64,000 nt of DNA from Magnetospira sp. QH-2. GTDB lineage: Bacteria > Pseudomonadota > Alphaproteobacteria > Rhodospirillales > Magnetospiraceae. The DNA is taken from positions 1,937,819-2,001,818 of the forward strand of contig NZ_FO538765.1 in the NCBI RefSeq assembly GCF_000968135.1, written 5' to 3'. The notes under the pieces were generated by a model. That model saw only the letters and a list, made by a program, of their open reading frames with translations. It did no database searches and had not been told where the DNA came from. Made by a program: the position numbers and the translations under genes. Positions 34,691 to 39,783 of the stretch are shown here, one piece after another; position 1 is the stretch's first letter, and the number at the start of each line of letters is the position of its first letter.

Positions 34691-35020
34691 TTGGCTGTCG
34701 TACTCGCGGATCTGGAAACCAACGCCCGGCTGGCAAGCGGCCTCCTCAAGGCCATGAGCAATGAACGCCGCCTGCTCATTCTCTGTCAACTGGTCCATGG
34801 CGAACGCACCGTTAGCCAGCTCGAAGACGTCATCGGCCTTAGCCAGTCCGCGCTTTCGCAGCATTTGGCGGTGCTGCGCCAGAATGATCTTGTGAAAACC
34901 CGGCGCGAAGCCCAATCGATCTATTATTCACTGGCAGGCCCGGCTCCCAAGGCAGTGATCGAGACTCTGTATGGCCTGTTCGGCAAGAATACTTCCTGCG
35001 ATCCTGAAAACTGCGCCTGA
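34691..35020 (+). CDS. ArsR-family regulator, BigR/SqrR-like
   Basis: 109 residues, one winged helix: KAMSNERRLLILCQLVHGERTVSQLEDVIGLSQSALSQHLAVLR then KTRREAQSIYYSLA. Cysteines at 32 (ILCQL) and at 103 and 108 in the C-terminal tail sit near the positions of the two sensing cysteines of BigR/SqrR, which form a persulfide-linked bridge with reactive sulfur species. The sensing role is inferred. TTG start, 8 nt after AGGGGG. Terminator follows; the operator-like palindrome upstream suggests autorepression. Confidence 0.82.
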   Translation: MAVVLADLETNARLASGLLKAMSNERRLLILCQLVHGERTVSQLEDVIGLSQSALSQHLAVLRQNDLVKTRREAQSIYYSLAGPAPKAVIETLYGLFGKNTSCDPENCA

Positions 35021-35150: not shown

Positions 35151-36104
35151 TTAGCGAACCACCAGCACCGAATTGAATGCCTTTTGCATGATCTTGTAGG
35201 CCACGGAGCCCTTGATCAGTCGCTGCAAGCCCGATTTCTCGCTCTCCGATACCACGATCAGCGAGTAGTCCGGGCCGGTCTCGACGATTTGGTCAACCGG
35301 ATCACCGACCTTGACGATGGTCTCCTCGACATTGACCTTCATCTCTTCCAAGATCGTCTTGGCTTTTTCCACCGCGATTTCGGCGTCCGCCTCGCCGGAC
35401 GCCTCAAGGGCCACCGACATTAGAGAGATGGGGCACTCGCAGCGGCTGGCCAGTATTGCGTCCTGACGTACCGCATCCAGTGACACTTCCGAACCATCGG
35501 TACATATCAGATGACCATTGCCTTCGGTCAACTCTCGGGCCACCAGCACCGAACAAGGTGCCTTGGTCGCCACATGTTCCGCAACTTCCGGGTCCCAGAA
35601 GCTGGCCAGACGCCCGCCCCTCCAGCGCTCCGAGGCACCGAGGATGATCAGGTCATACTGACCGATCTCCCATTGTTCAAGGATGCCCGTAGCAATATTG
35701 GCGGCGGTCTTGAGCTTGAGGATGATCTGCTTGCCGTCCTCGTTGCGGTAGACGATCTTGTTGTCGCCCAATGGATCCCCCGCAACATCCGTGTGGAAGG
35801 ACTCGCTGCTCCATCCATCGCCCATGACACCCAATTCGGCCAGCATCTCCAGCCCGGTCTTCAAATACTTGATTCCCGGCAGTTCGAGCCCCCAATCGAG
35901 CATGTTCTCGCGGGCGACACTGACCTGCAGACCACCGGAGCGGAGCCCCTGATCCACCGCCCGCACATAGACCAGGCAGATATCGGCATCAACACCGCCT
36001 CCCAGTTTGGCTGCATAACGTAGTCCGCGATAGGATTCGTCGGAGCCATCGATACAGACCAGGATTCTAAATCGGCTATTGTCGATTTTCTCTAGTTCCA
36101 GCAT
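35151..36104 (-). CDS. Tandem universal stress protein (UspA family)
   Basis: 317 residues with two UspA-like domains. The first starts RFRILVCIDGSDESYRGLRYA, the second HLICTDGSEVSLDAVRQDA and ends GSVAYKIMQKAFNSVLVVR, with the G-2x-G-9x-G(S)-like tail partly kept (SEKSGLQRLIKGSVAYK). They bind nucleotides and act in stress adaptation. ATG 36104 (MLELEKIDNS) is used; upstream in-frame codons run into the transporter gene. It is 22 bp downstream of the DASS transporter, so the two are probably co-expressed. Confidence 0.9.
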   Translation of the reverse strand: MLELEKIDNSRFRILVCIDGSDESYRGLRYAAKLGGGVDADICLVYVRAVDQGLRSGGLQVSVARENMLDWGLELPGIKYLKTGLEMLAELGVMGDGWSSESFHTDVAGDPLGDNKIVYRNEDGKQIILKLKTAANIATGILEQWEIGQYDLIILGASERWRGGRLASFWDPEVAEHVATKAPCSVLVARELTEGNGHLICTDGSEVSLDAVRQDAILASRCECPISLMSVALEASGEADAEIAVEKAKTILEEMKVNVEETIVKVGDPVDQIVETGPDYSLIVVSESEKSGLQRLIKGSVAYKIMQKAFNSVLVVR

Positions 36105-36126
36105 GACCTCATCCCTCGTTTTTTCG

Positions 36127-37863
36127 TTATACGCCAAGCATTGGCCAATAAATGGCCGCCGCCACCAACATAACAATGGTCGACATGACGGCCATCTTCC
36201 AACCGACATTGAGGAAATCCGTGGTTTTCAGATATCCCGACGCATAGACAATGGTGCAGGCCGGGGTTCCAACCACGGTCAGATAGGCAAAGGCCGATGA
36301 GACGGCGGTGATAAAGCCGATGATGATCGGGCTTTCATTGGCCGCCGTGGCCAAGTTCAACACGATGGGCCCCAGAACCGCCACGGCGGCACCGTTGGAC
36401 ATTGTATTGGTGACGCCGGTGGTCAGCACGGACACCGCGGCCCATAGACCATAGCCTTCGCTGGCCCCAATGGGTTCCAGCATGGCCAGGAAGCTCTCAG
36501 CCACCCACTTGGCCGCCCCGGTATCCTTCATTTGCACACCGAGCGAGATCGCCGCCGCATAGAGCAAGACAACGCCCCAGTTGACCCCGGAGTTAACGTC
36601 TTCCCACTTCACCAGCCCGGCGACCAGGAACATAGCCGCGCCAAGGACCGCAACGGTTCCCATGCCTATCTGACCAGACACCAATATCCAGCCCAGCAGG
36701 ATCAAGACGAACAGGAAGATCGACACATAATCCGCGCCCTTCATCGGTCCCTGCTCTTCGATCTGCGCGCGCAGCTTCACGACGGCGCGGGACAGGTCCT
36801 TATATTCCGGCTTAAAGGTGAACAGCAAAATGATGGTCACAAACGGAATTTGTAGCAGGAACATCGGATAGGCGAACGTCATCCACTTCACGTAGTCGAT
36901 GAGGAACTTGAAGGTCTCCGGGTTGGTCGGATCATAGAAAAAGTCTTTCCAATAGCCGATCATGATGGCGTTACGCGCGCCGCCCGAAGGGGTACCGATA
37001 CCCGCCACCGAGCACCCATAGGAAATGGAAAACAACAGCACCGCCGCCAGATTGCGAACCTTTTTCGGATCATCAGAGGTCAGGGTGATCAGAGTGATTC
37101 CCACCGGCAACATCATGGCGGCAACGGTGTGCTCACCAATGAAGGACGCCAGCAGACCGGAAACAACGGTGATCCCAAAAGCGATCCGCGCTGTCTTGGT
37201 GCCGGTCATCTTGACGATGAAAAAGGCGATGCGCTTGTCGAGCTTCTGTTTCACCACGGCCACGGCCAGCATCAGCGAGCCCATGATAAACAGCACCGAA
37301 TCTTTCATCAGGCTGCGCGCCACATCCGATGAATCCAGCCCCAACAGCAAAACCTGCGCTACCACGATCAGCAATGCCACCGTGGGCAGGGGAACTGGCT
37401 CGGTGACAAATAAGATCGTCGCCACCACCGACATGGTCAGCACCGCCATGCCCGCCGAGGTCAGCCCCTCTGGCGTTGGAATGGACAAGAGCACAACACC
37501 AACGCCCATGGCGATGATGAACCAGCGTTTTTCCCAGAAGACCGCCAGGGACTTGGCCTGTTGCAGGCGCGCGGCACGTTTGGCAACTTTCGAAACAGGC
37601 GCCTCTCCGGCGGCGGCCGGACGCAAAGCCCGAACGGCGTCCAAATGCATGCCGACAATAAGGATGGGTATTTGGAATAGTCCCTTGGTCAAGGCAAAGA
37701 TCAGGCTGAACAGAACAACCACACCTTCCTTGAAATAGTAAAGGACTTCACCGATGGCCGATCGCGATTGAACATCTTCACCGCGCTCTGCATCAGTCAA
37801 ATCACTGGTATCATGATCGGATTCGGTTGGGAATTCCTCCCCGGGCTTTTTAGCCTCGGCCAT
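36127..37863 (-). CDS. DASS/SLC13-family anion:Na+ symporter
   Basis: 578 residues. An acidic soluble head (1-40) precedes about 11-13 membrane helices. Two DASS half-repeats are visible, the first ending at GIGTPSGGARNAIMIGY, the second at LTVVGTPACTIVYASGYL; the GTP-x motif replaces the SNT motif of dicarboxylate carriers. Substrate unresolved: sulfate, C4-dicarboxylate or another anion. A TATAAT at 37921-37916 (minus strand) lies about 55 bp upstream. The uspA-family gene is downstream in the same unit. Confidence 0.88.
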   Translation of the reverse strand: MAEAKKPGEEFPTESDHDTSDLTDAERGEDVQSRSAIGEVLYYFKEGVVVLFSLIFALTKGLFQIPILIVGMHLDAVRALRPAAAGEAPVSKVAKRAARLQQAKSLAVFWEKRWFIIAMGVGVVLLSIPTPEGLTSAGMAVLTMSVVATILFVTEPVPLPTVALLIVVAQVLLLGLDSSDVARSLMKDSVLFIMGSLMLAVAVVKQKLDKRIAFFIVKMTGTKTARIAFGITVVSGLLASFIGEHTVAAMMLPVGITLITLTSDDPKKVRNLAAVLLFSISYGCSVAGIGTPSGGARNAIMIGYWKDFFYDPTNPETFKFLIDYVKWMTFAYPMFLLQIPFVTIILLFTFKPEYKDLSRAVVKLRAQIEEQGPMKGADYVSIFLFVLILLGWILVSGQIGMGTVAVLGAAMFLVAGLVKWEDVNSGVNWGVVLLYAAAISLGVQMKDTGAAKWVAESFLAMLEPIGASEGYGLWAAVSVLTTGVTNTMSNGAAVAVLGPIVLNLATAANESPIIIGFITAVSSAFAYLTVVGTPACTIVYASGYLKTTDFLNVGWKMAVMSTIVMLVAAAIYWPMLGV

Positions 37864-38018: not shown

Positions 38019-38681
38019 TTAGCCCGCAAACGAAGCGCGAATGGCGTCCATATTGGCCTTGTAGGCTTCCATGCCTTCGCCCTTGTAGACGGCGGAACCA
38101 GCGACCAGTACGTCGGCACCGGCATCCACCACGGCCTTGGCGGTGGCCGGACTGACGCCGCCATCCACTTCCAACTCGATGGGTCGATCGCCGATCATCT
38201 TGCGGATGCGGGCGATTTTTTCCAGTTGCGAATCGATAAAGCTCTGACCGCCGAAACCGGGGTTCACGGACATCACCAAGATAAGATCAACCTTGTCGAT
38301 CACGTACTCCAGGATCGATTCCGGGGTCGCCGGGTTGAGCGACAGACCAGCCTTCTTGCCCAGCGACCGGATGAACTGCAGGCTGCGATCAATATGGGGA
38401 TCGGCCTCGGCATGAACGGTGATGATATCGGCACCGGCATCGGCATAGTCCTGCAAGAACGGCTGAGCCGGATTGATCATCAGGTGCACATCAAACGGCA
38501 GTTTGGTCCAAGGCCGGATGCATTTGATGATCGGCGGGCCGAAAGTCAGATTGGGGACAAAGTGCCCGTCCATGACATCGATATGGATATAGTCGCAGCC
38601 ACCGTCGTCGATGGCTTTCACCTCTTCTCCAAGACGGGAGAAGTCGGCGGACAGGATGCTGGGCGCGATCTTAACGCTCAT
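38019..38681 (-). CDS. rpe: Ribulose-phosphate 3-epimerase
   Basis: 220 residues. It interconverts ribulose 5-phosphate and xylulose 5-phosphate. TIM-barrel motifs with metal/catalytic residues: [49 protein letters not shown] and [12 protein letters not shown]. Divergent from cbbP over 220 bp; the pairing links it to the Calvin cycle as well as the pentose phosphate pathway. Confidence 0.97.
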
Positions 38682-38803
38682 GAATTTTTCCTCCGTGGTC
38701 TACTTATCTGGATCGAGCCCACCGCTGTGCGGTCAACTCCCCTGAAAAACGGATCACGGTTTGCCCGAATCCGTTCCCTCTCGCAATATTTTCTGTTTCT
38801 AAT

Positions 38804-38809
38804 ATACTG
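38804..38809 (+). promoter_or_regulatory. Candidate -10 box for cbbP
   Basis: TATACT (five of six to consensus) about 93 bp before the cbbP ATG. No convincing -35 is visible 16-18 bp upstream, as expected if an activator such as CbbR is needed; no CbbR site is claimed. Confidence 0.3.
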
Positions 38810-38901: not shown

Positions 38902-39783
38902 ATGTCCAAAGCCCATCCGATTATTGCCGTGACCGGCGCTTCCGGTTCCGGACGCAGTGTCGTCCGAGACGCCGTTCGCAAGGTCTGCGACCGGCAAGGT
39001 TTGAATCCCGCCTATGTGGATGGCGAAAGCTTCCACAAGTATAACCGCGCGGAAATGAAGGTCGCCCAGGATAAGGCCGTCCGCGCGGGTGAGCCCCTGC
39101 TGACCCACTTCGGGCCCGATGCCAATCTGTGGGAAGAACAAAAGCAATTCTTCAAAAAGTACGGGGACAGCGGAACGGGGCGTCACCGGCGCTACCTGCA
39201 TACGCAAGAAGAAGCCGACGCCTATGGCGATGGCACGGTCGGTCCCGGACAATTCACACCCTGCAAGGACATCCCGACCAATACCGACTTCATGCTGTAC
39301 GAAGGCCTGCATGGCGCGGTGAAAACCAATGATGTGGACATTGAATCCCTGGTGGATTTGCGCATCGGCGTGGTGCCGGTGGTCAATTTGGAATGGACTC
39401 AGAAGCTGTTGCGGGACGTGAACCAGCGCGGCTATTCCCAGGACGAAGTGATGAACGCCATCCTTGGGCGCATGGGCGACTACGTGCGCTATGTGATCCC
39501 GCAGTTCCACCATAGCCACATCAATTTCCAGAAAGTAGCCGTGGTCGATACCTCCAATCCACTGGTCGCCCGGGATATCCCCACCGATTCGGAGTGTCTG
39601 TTCGTGATCCGCTTCCGTGACCCGAAGGACCCCAAGGTGCCCGTGGACTTTCCCTATCTGGTGGACAAGATCCCCAACGCCAAAATGTCCCGGCGCAACA
39701 CGCTGGTCATCCCGGGTGGTGAGTTCGGCTTGGCTTTGGAACTGATCATGCCGCCGATCCTGAACGTTTTGCTCAGAGGTTAA
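38902..39783 (+). CDS. cbbP: Phosphoribulokinase (class I, CbbP)
   Basis: 293 residues. It phosphorylates ribulose 5-phosphate to ribulose 1,5-bisphosphate, the acceptor for Rubisco. The P-loop is TGASGSGRS and class I features FHKYNRAEMK, LYEGLHGAV, VPVVNLEWTQKL, and VVDTSNP are intact. At position 42, which is the catalytic Asp in the Rhodobacter sphaeroides enzyme (GDAFH), this protein has Glu (GESFH); Lys53 and His45 are kept. No Rubisco, aldolase or cbbR gene is in the window. GGGGG-rich ribosome site. Confidence 0.9.
   Translation: MSKAHPIIAVTGASGSGRSVVRDAVRKVCDRQGLNPAYVDGESFHKYNRAEMKVAQDKAVRAGEPLLTHFGPDANLWEEQKQFFKKYGDSGTGRHRRYLHTQEEADAYGDGTVGPGQFTPCKDIPTNTDFMLYEGLHGAVKTNDVDIESLVDLRIGVVPVVNLEWTQKLLRDVNQRGYSQDEVMNAILGRMGDYVRYVIPQFHHSHINFQKVAVVDTSNPLVARDIPTDSECLFVIRFRDPKDPKVPVDFPYLVDKIPNAKMSRRNTLVIPGGEFGLALELIMPPILNVLLRG

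Follow-up and report, generated by a model that had tools for sequence, protein, structure and literature searches.

The Calvin cycle has two enzymes of its own, one of which is phosphoribulokinase (PRK). What is known of PRK regulation in bacteria mostly concerns a homo-octamer that NADH activates and AMP inhibits. The window analyzed here, a stretch of 64 kb from the Magnetospira sp. QH-2 genome, contains an open reading frame (ORF; 38902..39783, plus strand) whose 293-aa product resembles class I PRKs, with a glutamate in the place of Asp42, which we take to be the catalytic base of these enzymes. Is this protein, referred to below as PRK2, still a phosphoribulokinase and, if it is not, for what is it kept?

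PRK2 is a class I phosphoribulokinase homolog with an altered active site

The sequence-only reading had described the ORF as a class I PRK with a GESFH motif, and this description holds: the frame is open throughout, codon 42 is GAA (39025-39027), and the protein is homologous over its full length to the Rhodobacter sphaeroides PRK (PDB 1A7J; E 2.9e-83). It scores 381.8 bits against the class I PRK family profile NF011997 (cut-off 362) and 182.6 bits against PF00485 (cut-off 22), and 47.2 bits against the class II PRK profile NF005655, below the cut-off of 236. Its predicted structure (pLDDT 89.7, pTM 0.88) returned 1a7j as the top match in Foldseek (TM 0.87, 43% identity). Clade placement, described below, makes it a divergent paralog within class I.

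In the alignment with 1A7J, GDAFH becomes GESFH (39022..39036, plus strand) and the P-loop GSSGAGTS becomes GASGSGRS (38935..38958, plus strand), with Arg at residue 18 where the R. sphaeroides enzyme has Thr; this replacement had already been noted from the letters, as had the retention of His45, Arg49, Lys53, and EGLHG, which the alignment bears out. Gly stands at the R. sphaeroides Arg186 position (39466..39468) and Lys at that of Met249 (39667..39669), both on the plus strand. Ninety sites are canonical-invariant, that is, conserved in at least 97% of 94 canonical rows from the order, and 17 of them are changed in PRK2, including T18R, D42E, H167L, R186G, and M249K. PRK2 lacks the catalytic P-loop pattern G[SA]SG[AS]GT[ST], and the residues T18, D42, and R186 that it has replaced are each present in 94/94 canonical rows. 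Glu42 is thus as unusual as had been supposed, since all 61 PRKs read from outside the order (best or chosen loci) have D42 as well, together with a canonical P-loop.

PRK2 differs from the R. sphaeroides enzyme in these replacements and in a loss of ATP-side residues that runs through its whole clade, whereas the two proteins share fold, arginines 31, 234, and 257, which presumably form the allosteric site, and the Ru5P residues H45, R49, K165, and R173. We take R49 and R173 to be Ru5P residues and R186 to be the lid arginine, and assume that D169, K165, R173, and R187 are also tied to catalysis. Some ATP binding by PRK2 is possible, because S19 and E131 (EGLHGA) are retained. Class I PRK is an octamer in which His45 and Lys165 bind Ru5P and Arg168 binds ATP (PMC5241800).

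Divergent PRKs form one clade, probably from one old duplication

A search with the PRK2 protein covered 317 genomes of the order and gave matches at E 0.001 in 130, weak class II matches included; class I PRK sequence was examined from 115 genomes. Divergent copies were defined by a P-loop other than G[SA]SG[AS]GT[ST]. A divergent second class I PRK occurs in 25 of the 115 genomes and was not found in the other 90, which indicates that canonical PRK generally needs no PRK2. Residue 42 in the 25 divergent copies is E in 16, D in five, T in two, S in one, and A in one, and the P-loop is degenerate in all 25, including the five that keep D42. A canonical copy or canonical fragment accompanies the divergent copy in 24/25 genomes, the exception (G008) being a genome that is 76% complete; this co-retention is partly explained by shared descent. 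Rubisco large-subunit matches were present in 23 of the 25 (none were found in G072 and G008), a co-occurrence that is weak evidence since most PRK genomes have Rubisco.

In a quick tree, a single branch separated 24 divergent rows from the rest (SH-aLRT 94), and none of 500 shuffles was as low. A careful tree of 68 rows (23 divergent, 45 canonical), built without window columns 10-20 (P-loop), 39-45, and 132-138 (Walker B), also set the divergent rows apart by one branch, with bootstrap/SH-aLRT support of 98/94 and recovery in 97% of 200 bootstrap trees. The window PRK2 groups with its counterparts in G001 and G002 (100/99) and then with that of G008 (98/93). PRK2 thus probably arose by a single ancient duplication of class I PRK within this alphaproteobacterial order. 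Three fragments and the 5'-cut canonical copy of G124 were left out of the quick tree, and the broken divergent copy of G124 was left out of the careful tree and of the 23-row residue counts used below. The G153 copy (L084), which is cut by a contig end, is counted among the 25 and appears in no tree. Partial matches in G306 and G065 lie outside the counts, G148 has no sequence at residue 42, and the G037 canonical row has an ambiguous stretch.

A lone mutant is ruled out, as the clade is common to 25 genomes. The sequence-only reading had allowed that Glu42 might be the common residue in active, characterized enzymes of the clade; Glu is indeed the commonest residue there, but no member is known as characterized. 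It had also allowed for a sequencing error at the codon, which is very unlikely because GESFH occurs in unlinked genomes of other families too.

Beyond the order, wider samples contained PRK matches in 31/385 and 179/398 genomes, both samples including a few genomes of the order. Among PRKs from named genomes (80 loci, the best 80 of 590 confirmed), 80/81 have D42, and the exception is a member of the PRK2 clade, the one such locus among those best 80 (L167, Magnetospirillum sp. NC_groundwater_1737). A single-protein scan of genome contigs gave 14 pattern matches, none of them confirmed as relatives, and profile A1 failed to rank clade members above canonical PRKs. Neither a description of such a PRK clade nor a pseudoenzyme partner for PRK was found in the full-text literature, a body of text outside which most subscription papers lie, including the R. 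sphaeroides mutagenesis work.

Most divergent copies are under purifying selection

Of the 24 divergent copies that do not run off a contig end, 23 have an intact full-length frame; the remaining one is the frame-broken copy in G124. In 14/14 pairwise comparisons of divergent copies, dN/dS (NG86) lay between 0.05 and 0.36, and in the partner canonical copies at ∼0.04-0.20, although many dS values exceed 1 and the ratios are therefore rough. The dN of the divergent copy was 1.1-3.1 times that of its canonical partner. This faster evolution, together with the broken frame in G124, would suit a decaying pseudogene or a sequencing artefact, but the intact frames, the low ratios in every pair, and the presence of E42 in several families leave that explanation next to no likelihood. 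Judged by these ratios, neutral decay of PRK2 is excluded for most lineages.

Residues lost and kept across the clade

Seventeen of the 90 invariant sites are retained in fewer than 75% of the 23 divergent rows, including five of the seven in residues 11-20 (Fisher p=0.002, post hoc). T18 has become Arg in 17/23 rows; 19 rows have lost S19, six E131 (to G, K, or Q), five R168, and six R186. At least four unlike P-loops exist within the clade, and in the five copies that read ARPSGA[AL]TP both flanking glycines, G12 and G17, are gone. Position 249 splits the groups fully, with M in 92/94 canonical rows and K, N, E, or R in 23/23 divergent rows, and no divergent row has fewer than two changes in a list of 18 active-site and arginine residues. 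In the same 23 rows, H45, R49, H134, K165, D169, R173, R187, R234, and R257 are unchanged throughout. Mean retention is 66% for ten nucleotide-side sites, compared with 88% over the full set of 90 (permutation p=0.002), and 100% for the four Ru5P sites (p=0.08), so that strict retention on the Ru5P side is suggestive only; the residue sets for the Fisher and permutation tests were partly chosen after the retention table had been seen.

The occurrence of T, S, and A at residue 42, along with the P-loop and Walker B losses, argues for relaxed catalysis over a conservative D-to-E swap, and we consider it fairly probable that PRK2 is catalytically weak or dead. Against weak catalysis stand the retention of D169, K165, R173, and R187 in every divergent row and of D42 in five of the 25 copies. 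PRK2 could instead be a PRK isozyme that is active or slow, with Glu42 as the base and Arg18 assisting in the binding of the ATP phosphates, the two copies being tuned to different conditions, as duplicated cbbP genes are elsewhere. Such an enzyme would be consistent with the retained fold and family, with the same four fixed residues, with the prevalence of the conservative Glu at residue 42, and with dN/dS well below 1. It is hard to reconcile with the four copies that have T, S, or A at that residue, with the losses of E131, of both P-loop glycines, of S19, of R168, and of R186 counted above, or with the joint presence of T18R, D42E, and R186G in the window PRK2, and we regard it as rather unlikely.

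A second possibility is that PRK2 has turned into a kinase, or another kind of enzyme, that uses some other sugar phosphate or phosphate donor. The T18R change puts a positive residue back at the Walker A Lys position in most of the clade, purifying selection is consistent with a new enzyme, and in the window's lineage PRK2 is linked to rpe and not to Rubisco (see below). However, the Ru5P-binding residues are those that do not change while subclades differ freely from one another on the nucleotide side, and a new activity should have fixed one new P-loop where several unlike ones are seen, making a change of substrate improbable.

PRK2 lies in tandem with canonical PRK or beside rpe

The canonical and divergent genes are in tandem in 12 of the 25 genomes and apart in 13, the window genome among the latter. 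All 12 tandem pairs lie on one strand with the canonical gene first, with gaps of 0, 2, 2, 10, 10, 13, 23, 24, 27, 29, 40, and 43 nt, and two of these pairs, those of G017 and G076, directly follow cbbM (cbbM-prk-prk2). PRK2 might also act on its own, outside PRK oligomers, as a sensor of metabolites or a co-effector of transcription, for example by reporting Ru5P/RuBP status to CbbR. That the two genes are apart in 13 genomes would allow this, and in R. sphaeroides the activity of PRK influences cbb expression by way of RuBP and CbbR (PMC4806589). The 0-43 nt spacing of all linked pairs nevertheless points to matched protein amounts, and PRK2, with the length and fold of a PRK, has no DNA-binding or added domain, so we give the sensor reading very little weight.

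Although Rubisco of form II lacks a small subunit, a 109-aa Rubisco small-subunit-like ORF (L066:5677-6006; PF00101, 3.5e-18) lies directly after prk2 in the cbbM-prk-prk2 run of G017, contig C182. At 65 bits it is the weakest match above the PF00101 cut-off in the order (next lowest, 98); a form I Rubisco large subunit was not found in this 63% complete genome.

In the window, PRK2 is divergent from rpe (38019..38681, minus strand), the gene for ribulose-phosphate 3-epimerase, whose product makes Ru5P, the PRK substrate; one copy of rpe was found in the genome. Beyond it lie genes for a DASS-family sodium-coupled anion symporter (36127..37863, minus strand) and for a protein with universal stress protein (USP) domains (35151..36119, minus strand, start codon provisional), and the same USP-DASS symporter-rpe-PRK2 order is found in G008, a genome of another family. 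PRK2 is also divergent from rpe in G002 and G008, and in G001 an ORF with the rpe N-terminal motif lies on the opposite strand beside PRK2. Between rpe and PRK2 stands a 25-nt element, GCAATATTTNNNGTTTCTAATATAC (38783..38807, plus strand), common to the window, G001, G002, and G008 and differing among these four genomes at three free positions only. A search of the window genome that tolerated three mismatches found it a single time, and each of the three family genomes likewise has one copy. The element is probably a promoter or operator; no sigma-70 consensus match was found in it at the scan threshold. As read from these gene orders, PRK2 left the tandem in the window's lineage. About 4 kb from PRK2 (34691-35020), the window also encodes an ArsR-family regulator like the sulfite-sensing repressor BigR (84.3 bits, cut-off 155).

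Other PRKs and Rubisco in the Magnetospira sp. QH-2 genome

The genome comprises two contigs, the second plasmid-sized, and 4.05 Mb. Two published accounts give Magnetospira sp. QH-2 4.0 Mb and Rubisco Forms IAq and II (PMC4306944), and ∼4.02 Mb, the smallest of four genomes compared, with a plasmid present (PMC6532209). The sequence-only reading had reported no Rubisco or cbbR nearby and had proposed searching the genome for Rubisco and a second cbbP. The absence is correct within the 64 kb of the window but does not extend to the genome, where the search found both: a profile search gave two Rubisco large-subunit genes, in operons that lie ∼1.2-1.3 Mb from the window, each with a LysR-like gene upstream. 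The form I operon reads LysR gene, cbbL, cbbS, cbbQ, cbbO, and the form II operon LysR gene, cbbM, cbbQ, cbbO; profiles were applied to the large and small subunits only, the other genes being assigned by ORF reading. With two Rubisco operons and further PRKs present, an orphan PRK in a non-autotroph is ruled out. A 360-aa ORF with the same start sequence, probably a mobile element, is found twice, once close to the canonical PRK and once close to the form I Rubisco operon (L006:11823-12905, L008:15191-16273).

Three class I PRKs are encoded in the genome: the window PRK2, L002, and L003. L002, a canonical PRK with GDSYH that adjoins surE, is 53-54% identical to PRK2 and belongs to the same NCBIfam equivalog, NF011997, with 486 bits versus 382; unlike PRK2, it keeps all listed catalytic residues and falls outside the PRK2 clade in the careful tree. 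L003 (GDSFH), 48% identical to PRK2, is taken here to be a PrkB-like class I PRK, like E. coli PrkB. Like PRK2, L003 is a paralog in this genome with no Rubisco beside it, but its residues (L003:1501-2388) are a mirror image of those of PRK2: D42 and the P-loop are intact, and R234 and R257 are lost instead (R234H, R257G). A weak fourth match, considered as a possible pantothenate kinase, proved to be a class II PRK of 313 aa (L270:393-1334; G000:C1:1872092-1873033) with 367.9 bits against NF005655 and an intact P-loop.

A proposed role for PRK2

Catalytic residues are lost from a frame under purifying selection, and at this level PRK2 fits the pattern of a pseudoenzyme paralog. Pseudoenzyme partners of metabolic enzymes are a known class, in which a paralog with an eroded site is kept next to its active parent, and PRK2, kept with canonical PRK, resembles them. 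The reading we favor, to which we give an even chance, is that PRK2 is a PRK paralog with weak or no catalytic activity, which binds Ru5P and acts together with canonical PRK, probably as part of mixed oligomers. One old class I PRK duplication would have produced PRK2, which has been kept nearly always with canonical PRK, has lost part of its ATP/Mg site, often the Asp42 base, and sometimes the Walker B Glu, and has held the Ru5P-binding residues fixed. It would make little or no RuBP, still bind Ru5P, and join canonical PRK in mixed oligomers, altering the cooperativity or metabolite response of the canonical enzyme. Gene pairing and co-occurrence are what point to an association of the two proteins, and the case for action through co-assembly is evenly balanced; a free Ru5P-binding regulator would be a less likely form of the same idea. 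In the window's lineage, the mixed-oligomer model would have to accommodate a PRK2 gene that is out of tandem, back-to-back with rpe behind the conserved 25-nt element.

A broader idea, somewhat less likely than not, is that some Calvin-cycle bacteria have a two-component PRK, made of a catalytic subunit and a pseudokinase derived from PRK; the pseudokinase would bind Ru5P, perhaps also allosteric effectors, yet no ATP, and would set the activity of a mixed octamer. If this is correct, PRK, through which carbon is committed to Rubisco, has a built-in regulatory subunit that is annotated as an ordinary PRK. PRKs of this type are activated by NADH and inhibited by AMP, and the CbbR effector is RuBP (PMC4806589). 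A conserved PRK-derived partner with a degenerate ATP site would add a new control layer, and would also account for genomes in which two to four PRK genes are present. In the CP12/GAPDH-PRK regulation of cyanobacteria and plants, a partner protein likewise regulates PRK (PMC4806589), but CP12 is small and unrelated to PRK, whereas PRK2 would be a PRK-derived partner. All nine PRK2-clade members scanned, the window PRK2 among them, score above the NF011997 equivalog cut-off of NCBIfam, so that, if PRK2 is such a partner, the annotation "phosphoribulokinase" would not by itself demonstrate PRK activity. For a simple biochemical test, the tandem operons provide a naturally occurring cassette of two genes. 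In Achromobacter ruhlandii, a second class I PRK (L185:139-1014) has the P-loop ITVSSGAG and ECLHG in place of EGLHG while keeping D42, possibly an independent start of decay.
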